64,000 nt of DNA, taken from Candidatus Thalassarchaeum betae. Lineage in GTDB: Archaea; Thermoplasmatota; Poseidoniia; Poseidoniales; Thalassarchaeaceae. Under the pieces are notes generated by a model. The model searched no databases. It was not told the DNA's origin and was given only the letters and a program-made list of their open reading frames with translations. Location of the stretch: positions 1 through 64,000 of the forward strand of contig PSPG01000007.1 of the NCBI GenBank assembly GCA_003193925.1, given 5' to 3'. This document shows, piece after piece, positions 2,815 through 41,025 of this stretch; within the stretch, counting starts at the first letter, position 1; each line of letters opens with the position of its first letter. The position numbers were made by a program, and so were the translations under genes.

Positions 2815-3963
2815 TTGACTGAGGACGACCGGTGGTGGAAAGATGACGAGGATGCCGGTACCTCCAAGGAAGACGTCGAGAAGATGCTGAATGAGGCCGA
2901 GGCCAAGCGCCTCAAGCGCGAGGAGGAGCTCGCGCAGGCCGAGCACGAGGCCAAGATAGCCGAGCTGGAGAGGGCCGAGGCGGACGCAAGGAGCGGGGTG
3001 CCGGATGAGGAACCAGTCGCAGCTCCGGGTACGGCTCGGGGCGAGGCCCGATCACGTGAAGAAGCGTGGATGAGGGACGGGTTCGATTCGATTGAGGACT
3101 GGATGTTGTACGAGGCCACGAAAGACGGAGAGCTCACACCAGAAGAACAGCAGGATTTCATTGAACGAGCACACGGAGGTTTCCTCGGTATGTGGTGGCT
3201 GTCCCCTGGAGAGGGTCTTTTCGTCATCATTGTAGCTTTAGTTACCCTTGTTGCTGGTGTATCCGGAATAATTTCATATACCAACTTTGAGCCATGGGAA
3301 GAGACCACTGGGACCATCCTTGGAGATGGGGACGAAACCGGGACCGCTTGGTATTGGGATGGACCGTATGAAGTCGAATACTGCGATGATTACGGATGCA
3401 ACTATTGGGAGGAGTGGGAGTGCAGTGCAGACATCAATTACGGATACTCGGTAAACGGAGCCGACTACAACGCTTGGGAGTTAACGGATTGGGAGACCTT
3501 CGACTATCCGTGCATCGACGAGTACGTGAATGTGACTTACCCGATTGGGGCTGAACTCTCAGTATACTACAACCCCGATGGCCCTAGTGAATCTTCCCTG
3601 AGCGAGCCCACGCAATTCGCGGCGGCTCTTTTCTGCCTGCCTATCCTCATAATTATTCTGATCGTCGCCTTGGTCTACTCTCGCTACTCTAACACTCCGA
3701 GCAACTCGATGGGTTACACCGGCAATGGCTTCAGTGGCCAGCAGCAAACTGTGATCATCAACAACTCCGGATGGAGGCGCTGGTCCGGATGGGGGCGCTG
3801 GCGCGGGCATCATCATCCAAGGCATCATCATTCCAGTAGAAGAAGAATCGGTGGCGGTGGGTCGCGCGGTGGCGGCAGGTCCGGCGGTGGCGGTGGGTCG
3901 CGCGGTGGCGGCAGGTCCGGCGGTGGCGGTGGGTCGCGCGGTGGCGGCCGTCGTGGCAGATGA
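2815..3963 (+). CDS. DUF3592-like membrane protein with Gly/Arg-rich C-terminal repeat tail
   Basis: A 382-residue protein starting at TTG, 8 bases after an AGGTGG Shine-Dalgarno at about 2801. Residues 20-60 are a charged Glu/Lys/Ala-rich coiled coil. Residues about 135-157 and 269-289 are membrane segments, with an extracytoplasmic domain between them containing three to four Cys and ending in VYYNPDGPSES, the signature of DUF3592 proteins. The last 38 residues are almost only Gly, Arg and Ser (GGGGSRGGGRS repeated), preceded by a His cluster (HHHPRHHH). The tail is encoded by a 36-base DNA repeat. Gly/Arg tails of this kind bind RNA or drive condensation in other proteins; here a cytoplasmic RNA or protein tether is only a guess. 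Low-complexity decay is an alternative. Confidence 0.75.
   Translation: MTEDDRWWKDDEDAGTSKEDVEKMLNEAEAKRLKREEELAQAEHEAKIAELERAEADARSGVPDEEPVAAPGTARGEARSREEAWMRDGFDSIEDWMLYEATKDGELTPEEQQDFIERAHGGFLGMWWLSPGEGLFVIIVALVTLVAGVSGIISYTNFEPWEETTGTILGDGDETGTAWYWDGPYEVEYCDDYGCNYWEEWECSADINYGYSVNGADYNAWELTDWETFDYPCIDEYVNVTYPIGAELSVYYNPDGPSESSLSEPTQFAAALFCLPILIIILIVALVYSRYSNTPSNSMGYTGNGFSGQQQTVIINNSGWRRWSGWGRWRGHHHPRHHHSSRRRIGGGGSRGGGRSGGGGGSRGGGRSGGGGGSRGGGRRGR
3850..3954 (+). repeat. 36-bp direct repeat, about 2.9 copies, coding
   Basis: A 36-base unit starting GGTGGCGGTGGGTCGCGC is repeated exactly at 3850-3885 and 3886-3921, and partly at 3922-3954. It encodes the 12-residue Gly/Arg/Ser unit of the DUF3592-like protein. 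Exact identity at the DNA level suggests recent expansion by slippage or unequal crossing-over. Confidence 0.9.
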
Positions 3964-13897: not shown

Positions 13898-16800
13898 ATG
13901 CAGTCGGGGTCGACCATGCGTACGGCACTTGCCGTCCTCCTCGTCCTACTAATCGCTCCCTTGGGGGGAGTTGCGTCGGGATCTCCGGGTGCTCCGGTCG
14001 ATCTCGAGATCGAAGGCGACGAGATCATGCCGACCTACTCGAGGTCGGTCCAATTGGGCTTCAACCGTGTGGAGGATCTAAACCAGTACACCGAGGAGCA
14101 GTTGTCTGAAACCAATGAGTGGCTCGTAGTCACTCGAGTGCCAATCCACAGGCACTTGTGGACCAAGGCGGCACCTGAGCTCAGTGAGCCCGCCCCCATC
14201 CTGCGTGGTGCATACATCTGGCACTTCGAGGAGCCACTGAAGGCGCTCCCGCAGTTACAGAAATCGCTGGAGGCAGGAGAGATTGAGTCGTTCTCGCCAC
14301 TCGTGCTGAAGAAGCAGAATCCGAGGACCATCCCCAACGACACCGACTTCGACGACCAGTGGCACCTCGAGAACACCGGCCAGACCAACGGCGTCTCCGG
14401 CGAGGACGCCAATGTGACCGGTGCCTGGGACACCTACACGGGCACGGGCGTGGTCATCAGCGTGGTCGACGACGGGCTTGACCACGCTCATGCAGACCTC
14501 AGCCCGAACTACTCCCCCCTACTGTCGTACGACTGGTGCAACGATGACGAAGACCCGAGCCCCTCCAGCTGGAACGGTCACGGGACAGCTGTCGCCGGCG
14601 TCGCCGCTGCGGTTGGCAACAACTCCCTCGACGTCACCGGCATCGCCTTCGACGCCACCATCGCGGGCTCGACGCTCATCGCCTGCTGGGCCGGGGACTC
14701 GCTCGAGGCGGATGCGCTTAGCTACGAGAACGACGACATCGACATCTACACCAACTCATGGGGACCGGTCGACGACGGTCAGACCCTCGAGGCCCCCGGG
14801 CCGCTGACGCTCGCGGCCTTCGAGTACGACGCCTACCAGGGGCGTGAGGGCCTAGGCAACGTGATCACCTGGGCCGCCGGCAACGGGCTGGGCTCCAATG
14901 ACAACTCGAACTACGACGGCTACGCCAACAGCCGCTACACCATCGCCGTGACAGCGATCAACCACAACGGCGAGCAATCTTACTACGCCGAGCCCGGTGC
15001 CAACATCCTGGTCGCCGCTTACTCGAACGGAGACGGCGAGGGGATTACCACCACTGACATCACGGGCTCGGGCGGCTACAGCAACGGCAACGTGACGCAT
15101 GACTTCGGCGGCACTTCGAGCGCCACGCCCCTAGCCGCCGGCATCATTGCGCTAATCCTCGACGCCAACGGGAACCTGACTTGGAGGGACGTACAGCACG
15201 TCCTCGTCAACAGCGCGCGCATGAACGATGCTAGCGACTCGTCATGGGAGCTCAATGGGGGCGGGCACGACGTCTCCCACAAGTACGGCTTCGGAGTGGT
15301 CGATGGCGGCGCAGCGGTATCCGTCGCAGAGAACTGGCAGAACGTGGGAGAGGAGCTCAACGCCACCTACGGCCCGTACACGCCGTCCATCGACATCCCG
15401 GACGATTCGACCGGCTGGACCGAGGTGACGACCGTCGTGACCCAGGAGTACTCACTCGAGAGCGTCGACGTGGCCGTCGACATCTCACACACTGCCCGGG
15501 GCGATCTCGACATCGTGCTGGTCTCGCCCTCGGGAACGGAGTCGTGGCTGGCCGAGTCGCGCAACGACAACGGCAACCACTACTCCGACTGGATGTTCAG
15601 CACCGTCAGGCACTGGGACGAGTCATCGCTCGGGACCTGGACGCTGAAGGTCCGGGACACCGATTCGGGCACTAACGGCACCCTGAACTCGTGGGAGCTC
15701 ATCCTGCACGGTGTCGACGTGGACTACGACCACGATGACGACGGGCTGTCCGACGAGAACGAGACGCTGGTCTACGGAACCGATCCCTACAACCCAGACA
15801 CCGACGGTGACGGTCTGAACGACTACGACGAGGTCATGGTCTACGGAACCAACCCGCTGCTCACCGACACTGACCTCGACGGGCTTACCGACGCAGCCGA
15901 GGTGTTCAGCACCGGCACGGACCCGCTCGATTCGGACACCGACGACGACGGTCTCAGCGACGGTGCCGAGGTGAACTACTGGCTGAGCGACCCGCTGGTC
16001 TACGACCCGGACGCGGACTCGGACCTGTTCTACCACTTCAACGACTGCAACGACACTAATCCCGACGTCAACCCGGGCAAACCCGAACTGCTGAACGGGA
16101 TCGACGACGACTGCGACGACTATATCGACGAGGGTTACAACTTCACCGACAGGGACAATGACGGCCTTATGGACTGGGACGAGTACCACGTCCACGGAAC
16201 CGACTACATGGACGAAGACACCGACGACGACGGTCTTTATGACGGCGAGGAGGTCAACATTTTCGCCTCTATGGGGGCGGACCCGCTGGTTTACGACCCG
16301 GATGACGACAATGACAGCTGGTACTGGTTCCAAGACTGCGACGACGAAGACGGAGAGCGCTCGCCGGGACATCCCGAGTTACTCGACGGCTTAGACAATG
16401 ACTGCGACTTCCTGATCGACGAGGACTACTGGACACTGGACACGGACAACGACGGACTCTACGACTACGACGAGTTCCACAACATCACCACCGACCCGCT
16501 CGACGGCGACAGCGACGGTGACGGCCTTCCTGACGGTTTGGAGTACAACGAATACGCCTCGCTGGGAGCCGATCCGCTGGTCTACGACCCAGACGCGGAC
16601 AGCGACGGCTGGTACTGGTTCCAAGACTGCGACGACAACGACTCCGACCGCTCTCCGTCCAAGCCGGAGGTGCTCGACGCCAAGGACAACGACTGCGACG
16701 GGGTCGTCGACGAGGACTTCTTTGAGCTCGACAGCGACGGTGACGGTCTGACAGACTATGAGGAGTACCACAACGTCACCAGCAACCCAGGGCTCGCCGA

Positions 16801-17674
16801 CAGTGACGGCGACGGTCTGTCTGACGGTTACGAGGTCAAGGTGACCGGCTCCGACCCGGTGAAATTCAACTTCGACAGGGATGAAGACGGGTTCTACGAC
16901 TTCGAGGACTGCGAGGACCTGGTGGACACGATCAACCCCGACGGCATCGAGGCGTGGAACGGCTGGGACGACGACTGCAACGATGCAGTGGATGACGGAC
17001 TGGACCGACGCACTCTGGTGACTACCGAGCCGGACTTCAAGCGCGTTTACGCCTGGGACGCCGTCAATGACACTCTAGTGCTGACGATGAGCGCCATCCC
17101 ACCTCAGGTCGAGGCAAGTATCTCCTGGCAGTTCGGGGACTTCACCCTGACCGACAATGTGAGTTCTGACGGCAAGACGGTGGTCATACGGCCGATTGAC
17201 TGCGAGGTGCGCAACGGCACCCTGACGATCTACCTGTGCGACCAAGGGAGCGGTCCCCAGCAGGTCACTGCGACCATGGTGGACTCCGGGATCACCACCG
17301 TATTCGTCTGGGACCTCGACATGGAGGTCTGGATCCCTCCACCGACCCTGCTCGAGAGACTGTTCTCTTTCATCGTCAGCCCCATTGGCATCGTTGTCAC
17401 CCTCGTGCTGCTGCTGACCGTCCTAGTCGGTGGTGTTTACGCTGGAATGAGGTTCTCGCACAACCGCAAACTCAAGGACGCCTACCAGGCATACGACCTG
17501 AAGTCCGAGAAGTTCGCCCTCTCGCCCGAGCTCGGGCAGTACGAGCTGCCATCAGCGCCGGACCTAGGCTCGCTGATAGGGCAACAGAACACCCCCGTCG
17601 AGCTCCCTCCATTGCCTGCTCGCCCGGTCGAGGAGAGCGAAGACGGCATACCGAGAGCGCCGGACTTGGACTGA
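13898..17674 (+). CDS. secreted, membrane-anchored subtilisin-like protease with P-domain and Asp-rich repeats
   Basis: A 1258-residue type I membrane protein. It has a signal peptide (to about residue 30), a propeptide-like region, and an S8 subtilase domain with Asp191 (VVDDGLD), His228 (NGHGTAV) and Ser407 (GGTSSATP). A proprotein-convertase P-domain follows (about 490-605: SLESVDVAVDISHTARGDLD), giving a kexin-like order. Next come thrombospondin-type-3-like Asp repeats (DTDGDGLNDYDE) and MopE-like Cys motifs (DCDDxD...DNDCD), including three 97-residue tandem units. Then a beta-rich domain, a membrane helix (about 1150-1175) and a cytoplasmic tail of about 80 residues. It probably acts on the cell surface, Ca-stabilised, degrading proteins. 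An inner ATG at 13916 is an alternative start. Its stop codon directly abuts that of the opposing gene. Confidence 0.93.
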   Translation: MQSGSTMRTALAVLLVLLIAPLGGVASGSPGAPVDLEIEGDEIMPTYSRSVQLGFNRVEDLNQYTEEQLSETNEWLVVTRVPIHRHLWTKAAPELSEPAPILRGAYIWHFEEPLKALPQLQKSLEAGEIESFSPLVLKKQNPRTIPNDTDFDDQWHLENTGQTNGVSGEDANVTGAWDTYTGTGVVISVVDDGLDHAHADLSPNYSPLLSYDWCNDDEDPSPSSWNGHGTAVAGVAAAVGNNSLDVTGIAFDATIAGSTLIACWAGDSLEADALSYENDDIDIYTNSWGPVDDGQTLEAPGPLTLAAFEYDAYQGREGLGNVITWAAGNGLGSNDNSNYDGYANSRYTIAVTAINHNGEQSYYAEPGANILVAAYSNGDGEGITTTDITGSGGYSNGNVTHDFGGTSSATPLAAGIIALILDANGNLTWRDVQHVLVNSARMNDASDSSWELNGGGHDVSHKYGFGVVDGGAAVSVAENWQNVGEELNATYGPYTPSIDIPDDSTGWTEVTTVVTQEYSLESVDVAVDISHTARGDLDIVLVSPSGTESWLAESRNDNGNHYSDWMFSTVRHWDESSLGTWTLKVRDTDSGTNGTLNSWELILHGVDVDYDHDDDGLSDENETLVYGTDPYNPDTDGDGLNDYDEVMVYGTNPLLTDTDLDGLTDAAEVFSTGTDPLDSDTDDDGLSDGAEVNYWLSDPLVYDPDADSDLFYHFNDCNDTNPDVNPGKPELLNGIDDDCDDYIDEGYNFTDRDNDGLMDWDEYHVHGTDYMDEDTDDDGLYDGEEVNIFASMGADPLVYDPDDDNDSWYWFQDCDDEDGERSPGHPELLDGLDNDCDFLIDEDYWTLDTDNDGLYDYDEFHNITTDPLDGDSDGDGLPDGLEYNEYASLGADPLVYDPDADSDGWYWFQDCDDNDSDRSPSKPEVLDAKDNDCDGVVDEDFFELDSDGDGLTDYEEYHNVTSNPGLADSDGDGLSDGYEVKVTGSDPVKFNFDRDEDGFYDFEDCEDLVDTINPDGIEAWNGWDDDCNDAVDDGLDRRTLVTTEPDFKRVYAWDAVNDTLVLTMSAIPPQVEASISWQFGDFTLTDNVSSDGKTVVIRPIDCEVRNGTLTIYLCDQGSGPQQVTATMVDSGITTVFVWDLDMEVWIPPPTLLERLFSFIVSPIGIVVTLVLLLTVLVGGVYAGMRFSHNRKLKDAYQAYDLKSEKFALSPELGQYELPSAPDLGSLIGQQNTPVELPPLPARPVEESEDGIPRAPDLD
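15989..16861 (+). repeat. three 291-bp tandem repeats inside the subtilase gene
   Basis: Units start at 15989, 16280 and 16571, exactly 291 bases (97 codons) apart, each beginning with the codons for DPLVYDPD. Each unit joins a MopE-like Cys pair to one or two Asp-rich Ca-binding loops. Units 2 and 3 are more alike (both with WYWFQDCDD), suggesting stepwise duplication. Confidence 0.85.
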
Positions 17675-33369: not shown

Positions 33370-33999
33370 TCAGCAGCGCTCGCACTGAGCGCCCCAGAGG
33401 TGGTTGGCGAGAAGCACCAGGTCGAGCACGTTGACCGCGTGGTCACCGTTGATGTCGGCCCCTGCCATCGAAGCAGGTGCGTCCCCGTAGCCGAGGATAT
33501 ACTGCACCATGACGATGAAATCGCCGAGGTCGACGCTGCCGTCGCCGTTCGCGTCACCGCGAAGCGTGCGCACGGGCTGCAGCTCGGAGATCGCTACCAC
33601 AGGCTTGTCGGCCTTGCTAGCGCTGGTCTTGGCCCGGCTGTCCAGCGACTGCGCGCCGGAGTCGGACTCGTCCTCCCCCCAGAGATAGTCAGCCAGCAGC
33701 ACCAGGTCGGCAACGTCGACCGAGCGGTCGCCGTTGATATCGGCCTGTGCCATCGAAGCAGGTGCGTCCCCGTAGCCGAGGATATACTGCACCATCACGA
33801 TGAAGTCGCCGATGTCGACGCTTCCGTCGTCGTTCGCGTCACCGCGGAGGTAACGCACGTCGAAGGGAGCAGCCTCAGCTGACTCGCCATCCATGTCTTT
33901 CGTCGTTTCAACGTCCCCGATGTATTCACCAGAGACGAGGCCTGCCGTGCCGGCCAAAAAGATCAGCGCGGCGATTGTTAGGTCCACTGTTCGGTCCAT
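33370..33999 (-). CDS. secreted protein with two dockerin type I modules
   Basis: A 209-residue protein with a signal peptide (MDRTVDLTIAALIFLAGTAG) and two dockerin-like modules, each with paired Ca-binding loops: DANDDGSVDIGDF and DINGDRSVDVADL; then DANGDGSVDLGDF and DINGDHAVNVLDL. A Ser/Lys linker (AKTSASKADKP) lies between them. The final Cys pair (CERC) may form a disulphide. Dockerins dock onto cohesins in cellulosomes; outside these they serve as Ca-dependent adhesion modules. No catalytic domain or cohesin is present here. CTTATG lies 26-31 bases before the ATG. Compare the 67-aa protein at 31612. Confidence 0.88.
   Translation of the reverse strand: MDRTVDLTIAALIFLAGTAGLVSGEYIGDVETTKDMDGESAEAAPFDVRYLRGDANDDGSVDIGDFIVMVQYILGYGDAPASMAQADINGDRSVDVADLVLLADYLWGEDESDSGAQSLDSRAKTSASKADKPVVAISELQPVRTLRGDANGDGSVDLGDFIVMVQYILGYGDAPASMAGADINGDHAVNVLDLVLLANHLWGAQCERC
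33463..33561 (-). repeat. 99-bp repeat, copy 1 (dockerin module 2)
   Basis: About 99 bases nearly identical (roughly six mismatches by eye) to 33748-33846. Both encode LRGDANxDGSVDxGDF plus VMVQYILGYGDAPASMA. The high DNA identity shows a recent internal duplication of one dockerin half. Confidence 0.85.
33748..33846 (-). repeat. 99-bp repeat, copy 2 (dockerin module 1)
   Basis: Partner of 33463-33561, 285 bases apart in the same orientation. Synonymous and near-synonymous changes only, so the protein modules are almost the same. Confidence 0.85.
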
Positions 34000-34030: not shown

Positions 34031-34081
34031 TAACTTGGTTCAATGATTGGACATTCTTCAACGCCGAGAAGGTGAATCAGA

Positions 34082-34330
34082 GGGTAGGGAATCCACTACC
34101 GAGCAGTCACTCGGTGGGTATGCAGCAGAATTGGTTGGTTGGGCTTACCGAGGCACCCATGAAACTAGCAACCAATGGATAGGGTTCACCTAGGAACCCA
34201 CGCGACCACTAGTGGTTAGTTGGGTTCCCTACCTACTACCCGTGGTTGATAGGGCCCCCCCATACCCCATTCAACCACCCGTGATGGATAGGGGGCCCCT
34301 TGCAACCTACCATTCAAGCAGGGCACCCCC
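34082..34330. repeat. inverted-repeat-rich noncoding block
   Basis: About 250 bases without a convincing gene but dense in short repeats. ATGGATAGGG occurs at 34175 and 34284, with the related GTTGATAGGG at 34245. The block holds a GGGTTC-ACCTAG-GAACCC hairpin (34183-34200), the palindrome CCACTAGTGG (34206-34215), GGTAGGGAA at 34084 matching TTCCCTACC at about 34225, and ATTGGTTG matching CAACCAAT around 34130-34177. Homopolymeric G and C runs (GGGCCCCCCC, GGGGGCCCC) stand out from the surroundings. It could be a structured RNA, a recombination relic or a decayed repeat element. Confidence 0.6.
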
Positions 34331-34340
34331 TTCTGCAATC

Positions 34341-34472
34341 GTGGCCAAGGACGACACTAGCACGATGTTCAAGCTCGGGACATTCGACGGTTTGAGCCCA
34401 CGATCTCTCGTGCTGCAAGGCTTGGGCTTGGGCGTAGTGGCTGCCGTATTGTGGTGGTATCCCGGTCCATGA
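34341..34472 (+). CDS. possible 43-aa membrane peptide coupled to the GNAT gene
   Basis: A frame from GTG 34341 (or ATG 34365, 35 aa) ending in TGA 34470-34472, which overlaps the GNAT ATG as ATGA. The peptide has a polar N-terminus (AKDDTSTMFKLGTFDGL) and a short hydrophobic helix (VLQGLGLGVVAAVLWWYPGP). The ATGA junction is typical of translationally coupled genes, the main support. No family is recognised and chance is possible. Confidence 0.35.
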   Translation: MAKDDTSTMFKLGTFDGLSPRSLVLQGLGLGVVAAVLWWYPGP

Positions 34473-34945
34473 TCCGTGAATGCCTCGAAGACGATTTTGA
34501 AGCGATCTACGAGATCATCAACGACGCCGCACAAGCTTATCGGGGAATCATCCCACCCGACCGTTGGCACGACCCGTACATGCCTCGAGGAGAACTTCGG
34601 GAGGAGATATCGGCCGGGGTCGCTTTCCTGGGTTATGAAAAAGAGGGGGAGTTGGCCGGGGTGATGGGGACACAAGACGTTCAGGACGTGACGCTGATCC
34701 GTCACGCCTACGTGCGCACCGCGCATCGCAACCAGGGCATCGGCGGGGAGCTCTTGGGCCAGATTATGGACGGGGCAACCCGTCCGGTCTTGATAGGCAC
34801 CTGGGCCGATGCGTTCTGGGCGATCCATTTCTACGAACGCCACGGTTTCACAGTGGTCTCACCGGGGGAGAAGGAACGGCTGCTGCGGAAGTATTGGAGC
34901 GTGCCAGACCGTCAGATTGTGACGTCCGTGGTGCTGGCCGCCTAG
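34469..34945 (+). CDS. GNAT-family N-acetyltransferase
   Basis: A 158-residue protein. MIRECLEDDFEAIYEIINDA is a GNAT start; GVMGTQDVQDVTLIRHAYVR precedes HRNQGIGGELL, the acetyl-CoA pyrophosphate loop (Q-x-x-G-x-G/A), and AIHFYERHGFTVV is the C-terminal ERxGF motif. Small-molecule or antibiotic-like amine acetylation is possible; the substrate is unknown. It ends 4 bases before the stop of the opposing winged-helix gene. Confidence 0.87.
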   Translation: MIRECLEDDFEAIYEIINDAAQAYRGIIPPDRWHDPYMPRGELREEISAGVAFLGYEKEGELAGVMGTQDVQDVTLIRHAYVRTAHRNQGIGGELLGQIMDGATRPVLIGTWADAFWAIHFYERHGFTVVSPGEKERLLRKYWSVPDRQIVTSVVLAA

Positions 34946-34949
34946 TGAT

Positions 34950-35792
34950 TCAGGCTGCAGCCTCGACCCGGGCGACCTCTCTGGAGGAGATCAGCACGTT
35001 CTTCCCGGTATCGGAGAGTCGCCACTTGGGGCGTCTGGCCTCCGTGGCTGGCTCGACCATCCTGCCGTTGCGCAGCTCGCTCAGGTGGTGGCTCAGCAGC
35101 TGCCGCGAGATGGCCAGCTTAACGCGGATCTCGGTGCCCGAGAGCCCGATGTTGCCCGACTCCGCCAGCACTTCGAGGATCGCCAGGCGGGTGCCGGCGA
35201 TCGGGTTGCGAATCCGGCTGACCGCCTCCTTGGTCAGGCTGGCGATGGCGTAACGGCGCAGCTTGCCGTCCCTCCACGAGATGATTTGGCCTTGTGACTC
35301 GAGGGTGTGGAGGTGGTATGCGGTGACTCCGTTGGCAAGGCCCAGGGCGTCACGCAGGGCGGAGAAGTGGATTCCCGCGTTCGCCTCGAGGTAACCGAGC
35401 AGCCTACCGCGGGTGAGCATGTCATCGCGGTTGCTCTTCATCCTAGCGAGCATCGGGGAGACCAGTGCGACGAGCACGGTGACCCGCATCACCTCGAACA
35501 GGATCGAGCCGAGTGCAAGCGAGCCGAGAGCGCCCACCCCGCCGGCGAGAAGTCGGGCGGGCAGGTCGGAGGCGGAGTCGTCGTCCTTCTCCCCGCGCTT
35601 CAGTACGGGCCCCCCGTCCGAGCTCTCCGAGTCCCCCGAAGAGTCCTCTTCGGCAAACGTGGGGGCCGTGCCCCTATCGTCATCGACGGTGTCGACGATG
35701 TCGTCGACGGGGGCGTTCATCATCCAGCCCCCGGCGAGCATCGCAGCCACCGCCAGAGCGGTCACGAAACGCACCGTCCGGACGCCTTCCAT
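34950..35792 (-). CDS. membrane-anchored protein with two winged-helix DNA-binding domains
   Basis: About 280 residues. An N-terminal hydrophobic segment (FVTALAVAAMLAGGW), an acidic Ser-rich stretch (EEDSSGDSESSDGG), and a second membrane segment (GALGSLALGSILFEVM and following, about residues 85-120) precede two winged helix-turn-helix domains: SALRDALGLANGVTAYHLHT and LAISRQLLSHHLSELRNG. The layout suggests a one-component sensor whose extracytoplasmic linker controls cytosolic DNA binding. ATG 35792 chosen; an upstream start adds 18 residues. The divergent M29 gene begins 102 bases away and is a possible target. Confidence 0.82.
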   Translation of the reverse strand: MEGVRTVRFVTALAVAAMLAGGWMMNAPVDDIVDTVDDDRGTAPTFAEEDSSGDSESSDGGPVLKRGEKDDDSASDLPARLLAGGVGALGSLALGSILFEVMRVTVLVALVSPMLARMKSNRDDMLTRGRLLGYLEANAGIHFSALRDALGLANGVTAYHLHTLESQGQIISWRDGKLRRYAIASLTKEAVSRIRNPIAGTRLAILEVLAESGNIGLSGTEIRVKLAISRQLLSHHLSELRNGRMVEPATEARRPKWRLSDTGKNVLISSREVARVEAAA

Positions 35793-35894
35793 CACTCTGC
35801 GCAACCCTCCTTCACCTATGACTGCCGTGGTGAATTGGTTTGACAAATCAGAGTGGTGTTGAATAGTGGAACTCCCATCACGGGCCGAGCAGCG

Positions 35895-36926
35895 ATGGCC
35901 GAGGAGTCAGATGTTACCATTGGTGACGACGACGAGCGAGCGGAGGCCATGCTTACCGCAGCCCGCTCTGTAGTGAGGACCTGTATGCAGGTCCGGCCTC
36001 ACGAGCACGTGCTGGTGGTCACCGACCCGTCGACTTCCAAGGTCGGGCGCTCCTTGTACGAGGCAGCGGCTGAGGTCACCGATAGGATACTCATGATGAT
36101 GATGCCGCGCAGCCACAGGCAGGGCAACGAGCCACCTTCATCCGTCGGCGACCTGATGCGTCGCCAGAACGTGGTACTGCTCGCCACTCGCAATTCCCTG
36201 ACCCACACCCGTGCGAGAATCACCGCCTCACGAGAGGGAGCTAGGATAGCCTCGATGCCCGGCATCGATGAGGAGATGCTGGCAATCGGCGGGATGACCG
36301 CTGACTACAACGCCCTGCAGCGTGAGATATCGGGCCTCAACCCAATACTTCGCAGGCGTCGCGACGTCCGTGTCACGAGTCCGGCCGGGACCGACGTCAA
36401 ATTCCGCACCGGCGCCAGATGGGTCTTGGAGGACAACGGCATCTGCAACCGGCCGGGACAGATCGCCAACCTGCCTGCAGGGAAGGTGTTCGTCCTCCCG
36501 AAAGAGGGGTCGATGAACGGCAAGGTCGTAATAGACGGCTCGTGGGAAGGGGAACTGCTCGATGAGCCGTTGATTTTCCTCGTAGAGGACGGTCTGGTCG
36601 TAGGCATCACAGGCGGCGAGCTCGCTGAGAGCGTCCAATCTGTCCTGGACGAGGCCAAGGTCGGGCTGCGCCAGTCCAAGGCCGGCCTGGTCAACACGGT
36701 CGCCGAGTTCGGCTTCGGGATGAACTCACGAGCCAGACTGACCGGAAACAGGCTCGAGGATCAGGTGGTTCGCGGCTCCGCTTACTTCGGATTCGGCGAC
36801 AACACCGCCCTCGGTGGGAGTGCGAATGTCGGAGTGCACATGCGCGGTGTCATGCTCAAACCGAGCATCGAGCTCAATGACGTCGATCTCGTGCTCAAGG
36901 GCAAGGTCACTGCCCGCAAGAGGTGA
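35895..36926 (+). CDS. M29-like aminopeptidase / 2,5-dihydroxypyridine dioxygenase-like metalloprotein
   Basis: About 343 residues resembling the archaeal leucyl aminopeptidase (aminopeptidase T) group. Supporting stretches are NLPAGKVFVLPKEGSMNGKV, VAEFGFGMNSRARLTGN, and the C-terminal GSAYFGFGDNTALGGSANVG followed by HMRGVML, which carry the Glu/Asn/His metal ligands of this fold. It could act as a peptidase or as a ring-cleaving oxygenase; neighbours do not decide. ATG 35895 gives a family-like N-terminus; a TTGAATAG box is about 30-36 bases before it. The TGA stop overlaps the Shine-Dalgarno of thiN. Confidence 0.75.
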   Translation: MAEESDVTIGDDDERAEAMLTAARSVVRTCMQVRPHEHVLVVTDPSTSKVGRSLYEAAAEVTDRILMMMMPRSHRQGNEPPSSVGDLMRRQNVVLLATRNSLTHTRARITASREGARIASMPGIDEEMLAIGGMTADYNALQREISGLNPILRRRRDVRVTSPAGTDVKFRTGARWVLEDNGICNRPGQIANLPAGKVFVLPKEGSMNGKVVIDGSWEGELLDEPLIFLVEDGLVVGITGGELAESVQSVLDEAKVGLRQSKAGLVNTVAEFGFGMNSRARLTGNRLEDQVVRGSAYFGFGDNTALGGSANVGVHMRGVMLKPSIELNDVDLVLKGKVTARKR

Positions 36927-36931
36927 TGCCA

Positions 36932-37546
36932 GTGCGAGCTCTCCTCTGGTGCAACGGCCAGCAGCCATCCTCGCATGTCGCAGAGGCCCTGCTGCAGGCC
37001 GGCTCGACGCCCTTCGGGGTCGATGGTGGTGCTGACAAGGCCGCTAGGGCGGGAATCGTGGTCGAGGAGGTCCTCGGTGATCTCGATTCGGTGGAGCTCG
37101 GCCAATGGGAGGGCAGGACCCACGAACTGCCCGACGACTCCAGCAGCGACTTGGCCAAGTCGATTGCGCTGCTCATCGAGCGGGGCTACAGCGAGATTGA
37201 CGTGGTGGGCTCCGACGGAGGCTCGACGGACCACGTCTTGGGAAACTGGGCTGCGCTCTGCGAGGCCCCGGGAGGGGCTCGCATCCGCCTTCATCACGAG
37301 GATGCCGTCACCCACCGGCTCCACCCACAGGATGGTGGCTTGGAGCTTGAGATCAGAGAGGGCAATGAGTTCTCAGTGTTCGCTCTGAGCCCCTGCAGCA
37401 GCGTCCATCTGCAAGGAGCCGAGTGGAATCTGGACGGAGAGGCTCTGAGCCTCTCCACCAGAGGGTTGCACAACCGAGGCACTGGAGACGTCGTTCGGAT
37501 TCAGGCCGACGGGATTCTCGCCGTAATCGTCCCGAGATGGGAATGA
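36932..37546 (+). CDS. thiN: thiamine pyrophosphokinase
   Basis: About 204 residues. It transfers diphosphate from ATP to thiamine, giving the cofactor TPP. Family motifs in order: DGGADKAARAGIVVEEVLGD followed by LDS, SSDLAKSIALL (metal-binding Asp and Lys), GSDGGSTDHVLGN, and the C-terminal LHNRGTGDVVRI. GTG 36932 is favoured because AGGTGA (36921-36926) precedes it by 5 bases; ATG 36926 two codons earlier is possible. Coupled to the M29-like gene. Its stop abuts that of the AI-2E-family gene (TGATCA). Confidence 0.88.
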   Translation: MRALLWCNGQQPSSHVAEALLQAGSTPFGVDGGADKAARAGIVVEEVLGDLDSVELGQWEGRTHELPDDSSSDLAKSIALLIERGYSEIDVVGSDGGSTDHVLGNWAALCEAPGGARIRLHHEDAVTHRLHPQDGGLELEIREGNEFSVFALSPCSSVHLQGAEWNLDGEALSLSTRGLHNRGTGDVVRIQADGILAVIVPRWE

Positions 37547-38617
37547 TCACTCCTCTTCGGCTACCTTCGGGTCGCGTGAGAGCATCATCGCGATCGGCCG
37601 GGTCCTCGGGTCGGACTCCAGCGCGATTTTCATGATGACTGCTAGAGGCACACCGAGTACCATTCCCATGATGCCCCACGCCCAACCCCAGAAGGCCACT
37701 AGCAAGAGCAGTACGATCGGTGACATGTCGAGCCTCTGTCCGGCTAGCTGGGGCTCGACCAAGGCGCCCCATACCTGCTGGTTGGTCACGAGTACCACGA
37801 TGAGTATGATGGCCCATGTCGGTGAGAGGATGATGAGGCCCAGTAAGATCGGTGGAATCAGGGATATCAGCGCCCCGACGTAGGGGATGAAATCCATCAT
37901 GAAGGTGATAGAGGCCCACATGAACCAGCCGGGGACATCGAGATACCAGAGCATTATCCCGGCGATCACGGCCTGCCCGAAGGCTACGGTGGCCCTCGTC
38001 ACGACGTAGGTGTTGATCCCCTCCCCGGCGTTGCTCGTGATGTCCTCGATGCGCTCGGCGTCACTCGGGTATGCCGCCTTGACCCTGCGTGGGAGGGTCT
38101 CGGCCTCGAGTATGATGAAGAGCAGGAAGATGAAGACGGTGGCCACGTTTACGGTGAAACTCGCGAGAGAGCCTACGAACGAGGCGATGTACTGGTCGAT
38201 GGTCTCCACAGAGAAGAGTTCCGTCAGCCCGCTGATGTCGAAACTGTAGCCCATTATCGAGATTCCCTCGAGCCACGTGACCTTGTCGTTGAGTTGTTGG
38301 GTCAACATAGGGACCTCATCGGTGAAGGCCGTGAGGTTGGCGTACAGGAGCTGCGAGGCCATCCACAGCACGAGGAAGAGCATGGCCACCAAAACGCCGT
38401 AGGGCATCAATGGATGGGCGTACTTCCCCTGCATCAGCGGCCGCTCCTCCAGCCATTGCGCAGCAGGCCGTATCAGTAGGAAGAGCAGCACAGCGATCAC
38501 CAGTGGCTGTATGACCACTTGGAGGCGGGTAATGGCCAAGACCGAGACCAGCAGGATGATCGCTATGTTCGCCACTGTGGCAGACTGCAAATCACTCAGG
38601 CTCTGTCCCTTTCCCAT
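37547..38617 (-). CDS. AI-2E family (UPF0118) membrane transporter
   Basis: A 356-residue protein with about 8 hydrophobic segments. The extracytoplasmic middle region (TAFTDEVPMLTQQLNDKV), FGQAVIAGIMLWYLDVPG, FIPYVGALISLIPPIL, and the conserved VEPQLAGQRLDMSPIVLLL with GMVLGVPLAVI match the family. Members export AI-2 in E. coli, or act as Na/H antiporters or lipid transporters elsewhere; the substrate here is open. A 15-base palindrome lies between its TATA-like AATTATTG and the start, suggesting repressor control. ATG 38617 with GGGGGAGAG upstream. Confidence 0.9.
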   Translation of the reverse strand: MGKGQSLSDLQSATVANIAIILLVSVLAITRLQVVIQPLVIAVLLFLLIRPAAQWLEERPLMQGKYAHPLMPYGVLVAMLFLVLWMASQLLYANLTAFTDEVPMLTQQLNDKVTWLEGISIMGYSFDISGLTELFSVETIDQYIASFVGSLASFTVNVATVFIFLLFIILEAETLPRRVKAAYPSDAERIEDITSNAGEGINTYVVTRATVAFGQAVIAGIMLWYLDVPGWFMWASITFMMDFIPYVGALISLIPPILLGLIILSPTWAIILIVVLVTNQQVWGALVEPQLAGQRLDMSPIVLLLLVAFWGWAWGIMGMVLGVPLAVIMKIALESDPRTRPIAMMLSRDPKVAEEE

Positions 38618-38637
38618 GCTCTCCCCCGTCTGCGCTA

Positions 38638-38652
38638 ATGCGTACTACGCAT
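38638..38652 (-). promoter_or_regulatory. palindromic operator-like site upstream of the AI-2E family gene
   Basis: ATGCGTA-G-TACGCAT on the minus strand is a perfect inverted repeat with 7-base arms. It lies directly downstream of an AT-rich AATTATTG (38653-38660, TATA candidate) and 20 bases before the coding start, where a bound repressor would block polymerase. Confidence 0.5.
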
Positions 38653-38671
38653 CAATAATTCCCCGGCCCCT

Positions 38672-39913
38672 TCAGCTCCCGGATGCCCTTTCGTATATCC
38701 CGATGAAGCGCTCTGCATCGTAATCGTAGGTGAATCGATCTAGAACTCTGCGACGCCCGGCTTCGCCCTTCTCCAGCATAGTCGCCCTATCTGACATCTC
38801 TGTTAGGATGGCATCGGCCATCGAGTCCGCATCTCCCATGGTGAACAGTCCGCCGACGCTGTCGTCGACCATCTCGGGCAGCGGTCCGTGATCCACTGTC
38901 ACTACCGGCGTGCCAGATGCCATCGCCTCCAGCGGGATGAGGCCCTGGCCTTCGTAGTACGAGGGGTAGACGACCAGGTCGGCCGAGCGGAACAGCGCGG
39001 CGAGCTCCTCGAACGGCATCCCGGACTCTATGGTCACCGCGTCGCCGATCCCGAGTTTTCTCGCCTGGCTCTCCAGACGCGAGCGCAGATGTCCCCTGCC
39101 GACGATCACCAAGCGGGCGGCCGGGGCAGAGACGCGGACCTTGGCGAAGGCCTTCAGGAGCGAGCCGTGGCCCTTCCTAGCAGCTAGTCTACCGACTGCG
39201 AGAAGGAGGGTGGAATCGCTTGACTGAGCGCCAAATCTCTGGCGAATTGCTGCGTGTCTCGACATCGCGTCCTCGTCATCGCGGTGCAGCGGGAAGAACA
39301 TGCTGGTGTCGACACCCCAGTGAACCACCTCGCAGTCCCAGTCAGGTGGTGGCGAGTACCGGGACTCGAAGTCGCGCTTGGTGGCGAGCGAGTTCGAAAC
39401 GCAGACATTCGAGCCGTTGATGGCGGCTCGCTCGTAGCCGGCGTAGTGCTTGGCGGTGAGGAGTATCGCGAGGTCGTTTGGATTGGCCCACACCGCCGCT
39501 TCTCTCTGCTCTGAGGCGGCAACGAGGCCATCGCGCTCGCCCAGCCACGAGCCGTGCAGCGAGGATACGACCGGGGCGACGTTGTCGCGGCAGCGGGCGA
39601 ACTGCCCCGCGCTCCAGGATATCATCGGGCAGTGGAGGTGGACGATGTCGACAGGTGCCCTGGCATGCAGGCGCTTCAGTGCACGCATCGCGCTGCGGCC
39701 GTACGAGCGGGTGAAGGCCATGGGAATCGGGACCCAGCCCACGGTCAGCACCTCGACCCCCTCGATTCGGGGCGGCTGGCCGCCTCCGCCGGAGCGCGTG
39801 ATCACCGTGACTCGGTGCCCCTTCGCAGCGAGCGCTGTCGACAGATGGTACACAGTGGAGCCCATTCCGCCCCAACGGGGCGGATATTCGGCTGACAGCA
39901 TGGCAATGTGCAT
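38672..39913 (-). CDS. GT4-family glycosyltransferase
   Basis: About 413 residues, GT-B fold. MLSAEYPPRWGGMGSTVYHL is the N-terminal acceptor-side glycine loop; VGRLAARKGHGSLLKAF opens the C-terminal nucleotide-sugar domain; YEGQGLIPLEAMASGTPVV holds the Glu-x7-Glu donor motif. It adds a hexose from an NDP-sugar with retention of configuration, likely to a surface glycan or glycolipid. ATG 39913 is preceded by GGAGGG with 6-base spacing. It is divergent from a GT2 gene, a small glycosylation locus. Confidence 0.9.
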   Translation of the reverse strand: MHIAMLSAEYPPRWGGMGSTVYHLSTALAAKGHRVTVITRSGGGGQPPRIEGVEVLTVGWVPIPMAFTRSYGRSAMRALKRLHARAPVDIVHLHCPMISWSAGQFARCRDNVAPVVSSLHGSWLGERDGLVAASEQREAAVWANPNDLAILLTAKHYAGYERAAINGSNVCVSNSLATKRDFESRYSPPPDWDCEVVHWGVDTSMFFPLHRDDEDAMSRHAAIRQRFGAQSSDSTLLLAVGRLAARKGHGSLLKAFAKVRVSAPAARLVIVGRGHLRSRLESQARKLGIGDAVTIESGMPFEELAALFRSADLVVYPSYYEGQGLIPLEAMASGTPVVTVDHGPLPEMVDDSVGGLFTMGDADSMADAILTEMSDRATMLEKGEAGRRRVLDRFTYDYDAERFIGIYERASGS

Positions 39914-40019
39914 CGCTACCCTCCGCTTTGCGCTCAGACCCCCGCCTTTCAAGCGAACGGACTCAGGGCAGGTATTCGCATCATTCAAAGCAGGACCTCC
40001 GGTGGCCCGCCCTGATAGC

Positions 40020-40751
40020 ATGGCCGAGATCCTGCCCGTCCATGTCACCGTGGTCATCCCCACTCGCAACGAGGAGGCCGCCATCGTGGACACCATCCGA
40101 TCGGTGCCGAATGACGGCTGGTGCGAGAAGCTGGACTTCCTCATCATTGACGGCAACTCGACTGATCGCACCCGAGAGCTGGCAGAGGGCGAGGGGGCGG
40201 CGGTTTACCTAGAGTCTCGCAAGGGCTACGGTAGGGCCTACAAGACAGGCTTCGCGGTGGCCCCCGGCGAGATCATCGTGACCATGGACGCCGACTGCAC
40301 CTACCCGGGTGAGGAGGTTCCCGGACTCGTACGCAAGCTGCTCGACGAGGGTCTGCAGTGGATCACCTGCGACCGTCTCCGACGCGCAGAGGAGGGGGCG
40401 ATGCCCGGGGTGCACGGCTTCGGCAACTGGGTCCTCTCGACAACTGCCACTGTGCTGTACTGGTACGGCATCCACGACTCCCAGAGTGGGATGTGGGTGT
40501 TTCGCAAGTCAATTTTCGAGGACGAGCACGTACGCCCCAAGCACGACGGCATGCCGCTCTCTCAGGAGTTCAAGATTCGAGCTCGCCGTTATCTAGGCAA
40601 GCAGATGACCACCGAGGTCAGCGTCCCATACCGCCCGCGTGTCGGGGAGGCTGAGATCAACACCTGGGGGGACGGTCTTCTCAATCTGAGATTCCTGTTT
40701 ACACACAGGCTAGGTCTGACCCGACAAGTCACGCCTTGGGGCCCTGAATGA
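40020..40751 (+). CDS. GT2-family glycosyltransferase (polyprenyl-phosphate hexose synthase-like)
   Basis: About 243 residues, GT-A fold. HVTVVIPTRNEEAAIVDTI, IIDGNSTDRT, GRAYKTGFAVAPGEIIVTMD and the metal-binding DADCTYPGEEV match dolichyl-phosphate-mannose synthase-like enzymes; there is no C-terminal membrane domain. It probably charges a lipid carrier with a hexose for glycosylation. ATG 40020 (MAEILPVHVTVVIP) is the natural start; the longer open frame upstream runs antisense to the GT4 gene. It ends 16 bases from the stop of the truncated lipid-synthase gene. Confidence 0.9.
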   Translation: MAEILPVHVTVVIPTRNEEAAIVDTIRSVPNDGWCEKLDFLIIDGNSTDRTRELAEGEGAAVYLESRKGYGRAYKTGFAVAPGEIIVTMDADCTYPGEEVPGLVRKLLDEGLQWITCDRLRRAEEGAMPGVHGFGNWVLSTTATVLYWYGIHDSQSGMWVFRKSIFEDEHVRPKHDGMPLSQEFKIRARRYLGKQMTTEVSVPYRPRVGEAEINTWGDGLLNLRFLFTHRLGLTRQVTPWGPE

Positions 40752-40756
40752 CGGAA

Positions 40757-40772
40757 CATAGGGTACCCTATG
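40757..40772. repeat. 16-bp perfect palindrome CATAGGGTACCCTATG
   Basis: A perfect 16-base palindrome in the gap between the GT2 stop (40749-40751) and the truncated gene. It contains the truncated gene's stop codon (complement of 40768-40770). It may be a two-way terminator hairpin, a protein site or a recombination scar. Confidence 0.6.
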
Positions 40773-41025
40773 GAACAGTTTGCCGATCCAGCCGCGCTCC
40801 ATCGATCTGCGGCGCATGCCGCTTGACGTCGACCCACCGGGCCAGCGGCCCATCGACTGAATCGATCACCATGGCGACGAACATCCAGAAGAAGGCCAGC
40901 CGGTAGTTCTCGACGAAGATCGCTTCCAACGACAGCAGCGCCCAGAGCGCACCGGACGCCGTGCCCAGGTGCACAGACATGGCGAGTGCTCGCCATTGCG
41001 GGCTGGTGCCGTTGTCTTGGCTCAC
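40768..41025 (-). pseudogene. pcs: truncated phosphatidylcholine synthase-like CDP-alcohol phosphatidyltransferase
   Basis: An 85-residue frame. MSVHLGTASGALWALLSLEA, then RLAFFWMFVAMVIDSVDGPL and ARWVDVKRHAPQIDGARLD, match the N-terminal third of bacterial phosphatidylcholine synthases (Pcs). The CDP-alcohol motif D-x2-D-G-x2-A-R-x8-G-x3-D is there, but the frame ends (RQTVP, stop) just before its last Asp; a working enzyme needs about 230-270 residues and 6-8 helices. The lost part is replaced by the convergent GT2 gene. GTG 41025 or ATG 40980 as start. It is downstream of the beta-helix gene. A decayed gene is most likely; a re-used short membrane protein is possible. Confidence 0.7.

Follow-up and report, generated by a model that had tools for sequence, protein, structure and literature searches.

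Poseidoniales are abundant ocean archaea, of which we know of no cultured member. In the genome of Candidatus Thalassarchaeum betae, which belongs to this order, a short reading frame resembling the beginning of a bacterial phosphatidylcholine synthase (Pcs) runs into a 16-bp palindrome, and a glycosyltransferase gene converges on the same palindrome from the other side. The locus raises the questions of whether the frame is a remnant cut off at the palindrome, how a gene of this kind comes to lie in an archaeal genome, and what the palindrome itself may be. A passage of a 2021 review gives Pcs as "present exclusively in bacteria" (PMC7867332), and among the literature matches listed on phosphatidylcholine synthase and archaea no title or abstract opening reported an archaeal Pcs; a search pairing Poseidoniales with phosphatidylcholine had no match. 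Poseidoniales are already thought able to make mixed membranes, because they encode a glycerol-3-phosphate dehydrogenase of bacterial origin in addition to the archaeal pathway for ether lipids (PMC6461757).

In this paper we compare the window, that is, the whole stretch of 64,000 nucleotides analysed (positions 1 to 64,000 of contig PSPG01000007.1, assembly GCA_003193925.1), with related genomes. We put at about 0.72 the probability of the joint reading that the pcs gene is dead through an internal in-frame deletion, and that the palindrome is its native end and belongs to a dispersed family of exchange sites.

Results

A Pcs-like frame without its catalytic end

The frame and the elements at its 3' end are as follows.

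40768..41025, minus strand: pcs-like remnant, 85 aa, GTG start; made up of codons 1-80, the five native terminal codons and the stop
40786..41025, minus strand: retained codons 1-80; they encode the N-terminal helices and the motif through D80, DxxDGxxARx12Gx3D, without the last D
40786..40793, minus strand: deletion joint GGCTGGAT; in relatives, the segment missing here is bordered on either side by short stretches of similar sequence
40768..40785, minus strand: native pcs 3' end, RQTVP, TAG (compare RQTVS, TAG in the congener G005)
40757..40772, no strand: 16-bp perfect palindrome CATAGGGTACCCTATG; contains the pcs stop TAG and is the core of a 26-bp site

The minus-strand frame of 85 aa matches the N-termini of Pcs proteins, as first annotated; the start given for it, 40757, is that of the palindrome, while the frame begins at 40768. 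The initial annotation was also right that the Pcs N-terminus and most of the CDP-alcohol motif are kept and the last Asp is absent: D80 is present, and D84 is missing together with residues 81 to ~234, so that the window copy has neither the complete catalytic motif nor the fold. The NCBIfam model PhCholSynLeg matches the first 80 residues at E 3.8e-18, and Pfam CDP-OH_P_transf gives the frame 21.1 bits, slightly below its cut-off of 22. Since the product lacks the final catalytic Asp and two thirds of its fold, we infer that it is dead. It had been presupposed that the strain has no intact gene, and this holds for the assembly (91.8% complete), in which the frame is the sole pcs match.

Against their relatives the kept codons show dN/dS of 0.09-0.19, much as the intact pairs described below, with no relaxed constraint, and the loss of pcs is therefore taken to be recent. 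By itself the remnant is an ordinary deletion allele. The kept codons (40786-41025) are nearer to genes of the G010/G002 type (82-86% at the nucleotide level) than to that of G005 (78%); the adjoining DNA and the last pcs codons, unlike the kept codons, are nearer to G005, which hints at a mosaic ancestry of the region. Elsewhere in the window, the search for RNA families gave two tRNAs and nothing else, and internal direct repeats lie at 15740-16839 and 3849-3948.

Intact Pcs-like genes within the genus

Among 60 related genomes the pcs-like gene occurs in eight, namely the window genome and 7 of 12 other Ca. Thalassarchaeum genomes, and in none of the 47 others. The copies in the seven congeners are intact (236-242 aa), which answers the search for whole genes in relatives proposed at the outset and supports the claim that an archaeon here carries the non-functional remains of a Pcs-like gene of bacterial type. 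When a model of the seven proteins was run against 292 genomes of the order, eight matched, the remnant included, all within 1 of 22 genera. In a scan of named genomes the gene was found in seven archaeal records (Ca. Thalassarchaeum betae, Thalassarchaeum sp., Marine Group II MED-G34 and others) and in four from bacteria; the closest of the bacterial proteins, from a Phycisphaerae MAG, is 51% identical. The motif DGx2ARx12Gx3Dx3D is complete in all seven intact genes, and the catalytic residues are invariant in 11/11 aligned proteins, four of them bacterial. A misbinned bacterial contig was rejected as a source, as the same gene is present in seven separately named archaeal MAG records and the window neighbours match congeners over long stretches. 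The simplest reading is that the gene was probably acquired from bacteria.

Three of the archaeal intact proteins were compared with the NCBIfam Pcs models (NF045884-NF045888), to which they align over their full length (~220 residues, E 1e-35 to 1e-45) with 122-154 bits, missing the cut-offs of 300-440; because they fall below these equivalog cut-offs we call them Pcs-like and do not file them as Pcs. The Pfam superfamily score is 20.6, below the cut-off of 22. An AlphaFold model (mean pLDDT 83.6) has the CDP-alcohol phosphotransferase fold: its best PDB chains are phosphatidylserine synthases (7pow, Z 17.0, rmsd 4.8, 202 residues; 7b1k, Z 16.6, rmsd 3.9, 199 residues), and unrelated structures drop to Z ~10.5. 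A sequence search of the PDB gave two weak ABC exporter matches (E 0.003), taken as chance. The intact archaeal proteins resemble bacterial Pcs in the CDP-alcohol motif with its 12-residue spacing, in full-length alignment and in fold, and differ in their archaeal host and sub-cut-off scores, the window copy differing further by the loss of D84 and all beyond it. Archaetidylserine/phosphatidylserine synthases (PSS) belong to the same superfamily and are the best structural match, at Z ~17, but archaetidylserine synthase models score the same intact proteins at 29-41 bits, far lower than the Pcs models do. Among intact pairs with finite dS, dN/dS is 0.06-0.24 (one pair had saturated dS), and the intact genes are under purifying selection. 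Judged from sequence, the enzyme would add a choline-type headgroup to a CDP-activated lipid, choline being a candidate substrate by homology.

The deletion is internal and in frame

The remnant falls short of the seven intact genes by 453-471 nt, in each case a multiple of 3. The gene of G005 ends in LDRQTVS, followed by TAG inside CATAGGGTACCCTCTG, and the window frame ends in LDRQTVP, followed by TAG inside CATAGGGTACCCTATG; the ending common to both is LDRQTV-stop-CATAGGGTACCCT. The last five codons and the stop are therefore the gene's own 3' end, and the deletion is internal. A single in-frame event would have removed the roughly 460 bp between codon 80 and the last five codons, and its simplest mechanism would be recombination or slippage involving short stretches that resemble each other. 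The sequence at the joint, GGCTGGAT, is found again close to the end of the gene in four congeners and, with one change, in G005; the 8-bp repeat is deduced from the window and these gene tails, and gene heads in the relatives share only part of it.

The initial annotation had the gene cut off at the palindrome and the rest of it replaced by a convergent glycosyltransferase. Its observation that the stop codon TAG lies inside the palindrome (40757-40772) is correct, and the glycosyltransferase gene does converge; however, alignment with G005 places the native stop and palindrome downstream of an internal gap, and the glycosyltransferase gene adjoins the native 3' end without replacing anything. 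The break is at codon 80, ~14 bp short of the gene end; the palindrome, which is the native end, was left intact by the break and did not cause it. The frame can be explained without a misassembly at the palindrome. The deletion is an event separate from the exchange at the site discussed below, though near it.

A moved gene and an inverted block

Around the remnant the following features were compared between congeners.

40020..40751, plus strand: GT2 family glycosyltransferase gene, start codon uncertain; converges on the palindrome; in 12/13 genus genomes
34950..40751, no strand: 5.8-kb block bounded by the HTH gene and GT2; congeners differ in its orientation with respect to the flanks (inversion)
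34950..35846, minus strand: winged-helix (HVO_0163-type HTH) gene; its stop TGA opens TGAATCA, 34952 down to 34946
34451..34945, plus strand: GNAT acetyltransferase gene; fills the interval that holds pcs in G005
34087..34330, no strand: odd stretch of degenerate AGGG/CCC repeats; no match in the flanks compared
34073..34086, plus strand: half-site TGAATCAGAGGGTA; lies upstream of the dockerin gene, 74 bp from its start; this flank adjoins the pcs end in G005
33370..33999, minus strand: dockerin-domain protein gene adjoining the half-site; family call made on the G005 homologue

Read from one end, labelled X, the order in G005 is X, 5.8-kb block, pcs, dockerin gene, and in the window X, pcs, block, GNAT, dockerin gene. 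In G002, G008, G010 and G012 pcs lies beside a cation-antiporter-type gene (read from translation), and the window's genome has the same antiporter-side neighbours without pcs there. The block has GT2 towards X in G000, G005 and G010, and the HTH gene towards X in G002, G007, G008 and G012; the dockerin side adjoins GT2 in G006, as in G007, the two block ends of G010 are on different contigs, and G003, G004, G009 and G011 have other neighbours around the block. Since the orientation in G010 is unlike that in G002, G008 and G012, its closest pcs relatives, more than one inversion of the block is likely.

Some further observations concern these neighbours. The dense imperfect AGGG/CCC run between the half-site and the GNAT gene resembles decayed palindrome arms. 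An ABC-F-type ATPase gene (from translation) is another gene found in different places: in G008 it converges on pcs, and in the window's genome its start follows the TtcA-like site (L087 12568-12756 and L014 11150-12799). Contigs C46 and C40 of G011 hold two GT2 copies; this bin has 7% contamination, and two strains are likely.

A family of 26-bp palindromic sites at gene ends

The palindrome had been held notable in its own right. By itself it is at chance level, about 1.5 perfect 16-bp palindromes being expected per 64 kb at GC 0.62, and what makes it remarkable is its conserved relatives at other gene ends. The search for it elsewhere that had been proposed gave no second exact copy of CATAGGGTACCCTATG in the assembly; the family is dispersed across the genus. 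The family consensus is a 26-bp palindrome, TGANTCANAGGG-TA-CCCTNTGANTCA, in which TA separates two 12-bp arms. Its sites usually lie at the 3' ends of genes; the site in the window (40752-40777) has five mismatches to the consensus. With one mismatch allowed, the half-site TGAATCANAGGGTA gave 99 matches in the 13 genus genomes and the reversed control 11. Full sites with up to three mismatches numbered 28 in 60 family genomes against 1 for the control (forward counts), and were present in 14/60 genomes and 7/11 genera. A conserved short sequence in excess over chance, as looked for in a recombination site, is thus found.

In 20 distinct sites the stop codon of a long frame was often inside an arm. 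TtcA-like and HTH gene ends keep the half-site and continue after GGGTA into unrelated DNA, conservation up to GGGTA being partly selected, since these sites were picked by pattern. A look free of the pattern found half-site remnants at 5 of 13 GT2 ends (G000, G002, G008, G010 and G012, two of them weak), and, at 12 HTH ends, TGANTCANAGGG at three (G006, G007 and G010) and a bare TGAATCA in G000. Matches also cluster at contig ends: of the 48 half-site matches (among the 99) on contigs of known length, 27 were within 1 kb of an end against 4.5 expected, as strain-variable places would be predicted to show.

Gene neighbourhoods break at the sites

For ortholog pairs, the next 1.6 kb were compared by blastn or tblastx (E up to 1e-3), and pairs with <700 bp on either side were left out. 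Downstream of gene ends with a half-site, these 1.6 kb were unrelated in 12/13 pairs, against 44/491 control pairs; convergent gene ends without a site were broken in 20/143 pairs. Counted per gene end, 5/6 site ends were broken in all comparisons, against 7/204 controls. The six site ends come from five genes, one being probably a chance in-gene match that supplies the sole unbroken pair, and their number is small because most sites lie near contig ends. Partner exchange at the site between related genomes, the other property looked for in a recombination site, is found on these few independent genes. The rejoined right flanks that did prove homologous were matches inside coding sequence, a within-genome paralogue pair and the pair L035/L093, which has a TTAATCATAGGGTA variant; the rule is therefore not free of exceptions.

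Discussion

A possible exchange system

The pcs arm makes up a full site with the dockerin flank in G005 and with the GT2 arm in the window, where the dockerin arm faces other sequence. At several loci each gene keeps its own half-site, and the partner across the centre changes. A crossover at the TA centre would leave two 12-bp arms with swapped partners, and site-specific exchange at such sites would have moved pcs and would flip the 5.8-kb block. On this comparative evidence the 26-bp sites are most likely crossover points of site-specific exchange. Going further, the family Thalassarchaeaceae may have an undescribed recombination system, integron-like in its use of a 26-bp TA-centred palindrome at gene ends to exchange or invert accessory genes and blocks but with scattered sites, a proposal that we hold tentatively and at slightly less than even odds.

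As for the enzyme, an Xer-like tyrosine recombinase, one per genome in 12/13 genomes, is the only recombinase family in nearly all of them; no full site (up to 6 mismatches) was found in the stretches surrounding its gene, except one 6 kb away in a longer stretch of G000. A serine recombinase, suggested by the 2-bp centre, was rejected, being present in 1/13 genomes. REP elements are short palindromes between convergent genes that are moved by Y1 transposases; a Y1 (IS200-type) transposase was found in 0/13 genus genomes, the control matching in 5/14, and REP elements were rejected on this ground. A virus as carrier was likewise rejected, the exact 20-letter site core occurring in 0 viral contigs. 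A search of viral contigs for a Pcs-like gene gave 25 pattern matches, none confirmed.

Known systems share some of these traits. In PAISt of Streptomyces an 8-bp palindrome, TTCATGAA, at the bacA end is the integration site (PMC4057263); as proposed here, the exchange point is a palindrome in which a gene ends, and relatives carry degenerate copies of it, but PAISt has a proven tyrosine recombinase gene beside the site, whereas the Thalassarchaeum sites are dispersed, ~10 per genome, and none is linked to a recombinase. Archaeal dif is 28 bp long, with 11-bp arms and a 6-bp centre, and lies at the terminus (PMC5357621). Inverted arms and a single Xer-like recombinase per genome recall XerA/dif; however, the Thalassarchaeum site is a continuous 26-bp palindrome in many copies, and does not have the properties of dif. 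The integrase Int-pTN3 drives chromosome inversions in Thermococcales and acts on ~100-bp stretches (PMC5495485); frequent archaeal inversions are common to both cases, but Int-pTN3 is encoded by a mobile element, and no such element was seen at the Thalassarchaeum sites. Archaeal integrons capture genes across domains as single-gene units with a folded 3'-end site and are defined by attC clusters and IntI (PMC9668308); single-gene units with a site at the 3' end and the capture of genes across domains are the likeness, and the single, dispersed sites of Thalassarchaeum the difference. The terms 'Thermoplasmat', 'Poseidon' and 'Marine Group' had no match in the main text of that paper.

Other explanations

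The frame itself could be accounted for in other ways. If pcs were whole in the organism, the short frame would be an artefact of assembly or strain mixture that joins two nearby stretches or alleles. The source is a MAG, similar sites cluster at contig ends in regions of a type hard to assemble, and the affinity of the kept 240 nt with G010/G002 and of the last codons and palindrome with G005 is what a two-allele join would give; however, the shared stretch at the joint is only ~8 bp, an overlap too short for usual assembly graphs, the reading frame is kept across it, the joint lies inside a 77.6-kb contig whose flanks match G005 apart from the moved segment, and the assembly has no other pcs match, so that we regard an artefact as improbable. 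From the open frame, the in-frame deletion and the retained start region and low dN/dS it might be argued that the 85-aa protein has kept a use, such as regulating another membrane enzyme or acting as its partner, but recency accounts for the low dN/dS, and the genome has no second Pcs-like protein and the other seven gene-bearing genomes no short homologue; this we think very improbable. Hardly credible is a truncation at the palindrome by a rearrangement introducing GT2: the gene order has indeed changed at this locus, and one of the junctions falls in the palindrome, but the native stop and palindrome stand downstream of the missing part, as in G005, and the missing DNA is internal.

The exchange itself meets a serious rival, which we consider less probable than not though by no means negligible, in which the palindromes are a 3'-end signal (a bidirectional terminator, a stop-codon context or a protein-binding site) at which rearrangements are tolerated. 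Many full sites lie between convergent genes, with stops inside the arms (TGA of TGANTCA, TAG of CATAG), and archaeal gene order often breaks between operons. Against a signal of this kind, site-free convergent ends break in only the 20/143 pairs given above, a gene retains its half-site when the opposite half is replaced (pcs, GT2, HTH, TtcA-like), some sites are upstream of a gene (dockerin, 74 bp), and a T-run is absent after the sites.

Implications

Of these findings, the Pcs-like gene of the archaea and the family of palindromes are the ones worth following. A conserved Pcs-like enzyme in one genus of Poseidoniales predicts an ether lipid with a choline-type headgroup; archaetidylcholine has reportedly been found in Methanopyrus kandleri. 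With intact, broken and absent copies of pcs, the genus is a natural experiment. Gene gain in Poseidoniales has often been reported, to our knowledge without a known machinery; should the palindrome be a crossover site, it would offer a mechanism for gene turnover in the order. The single genes exchanged would then include pcs-like, GNAT, luciferase-like, nitroreductase and ABC-F genes, and such a recombination system would explain both the movement and the loss of a bacterial lipid gene within the genus.

Two other genes beside palindromes differ in composition from their surroundings. In G061, of another genus, a dockerin gene (L113, 713-1330) whose start is nearly identical to that in G005 has GC 0.60 beside genes at GC 0.42 and adjoins a perfect palindrome; it is either a recent transfer between genera or a binning error. 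A luciferase-like monooxygenase gene in G000 (L088, 11281-12339, contig C4) has GC 0.48 against 0.61 around it and ends at a full palindrome near the contig end.
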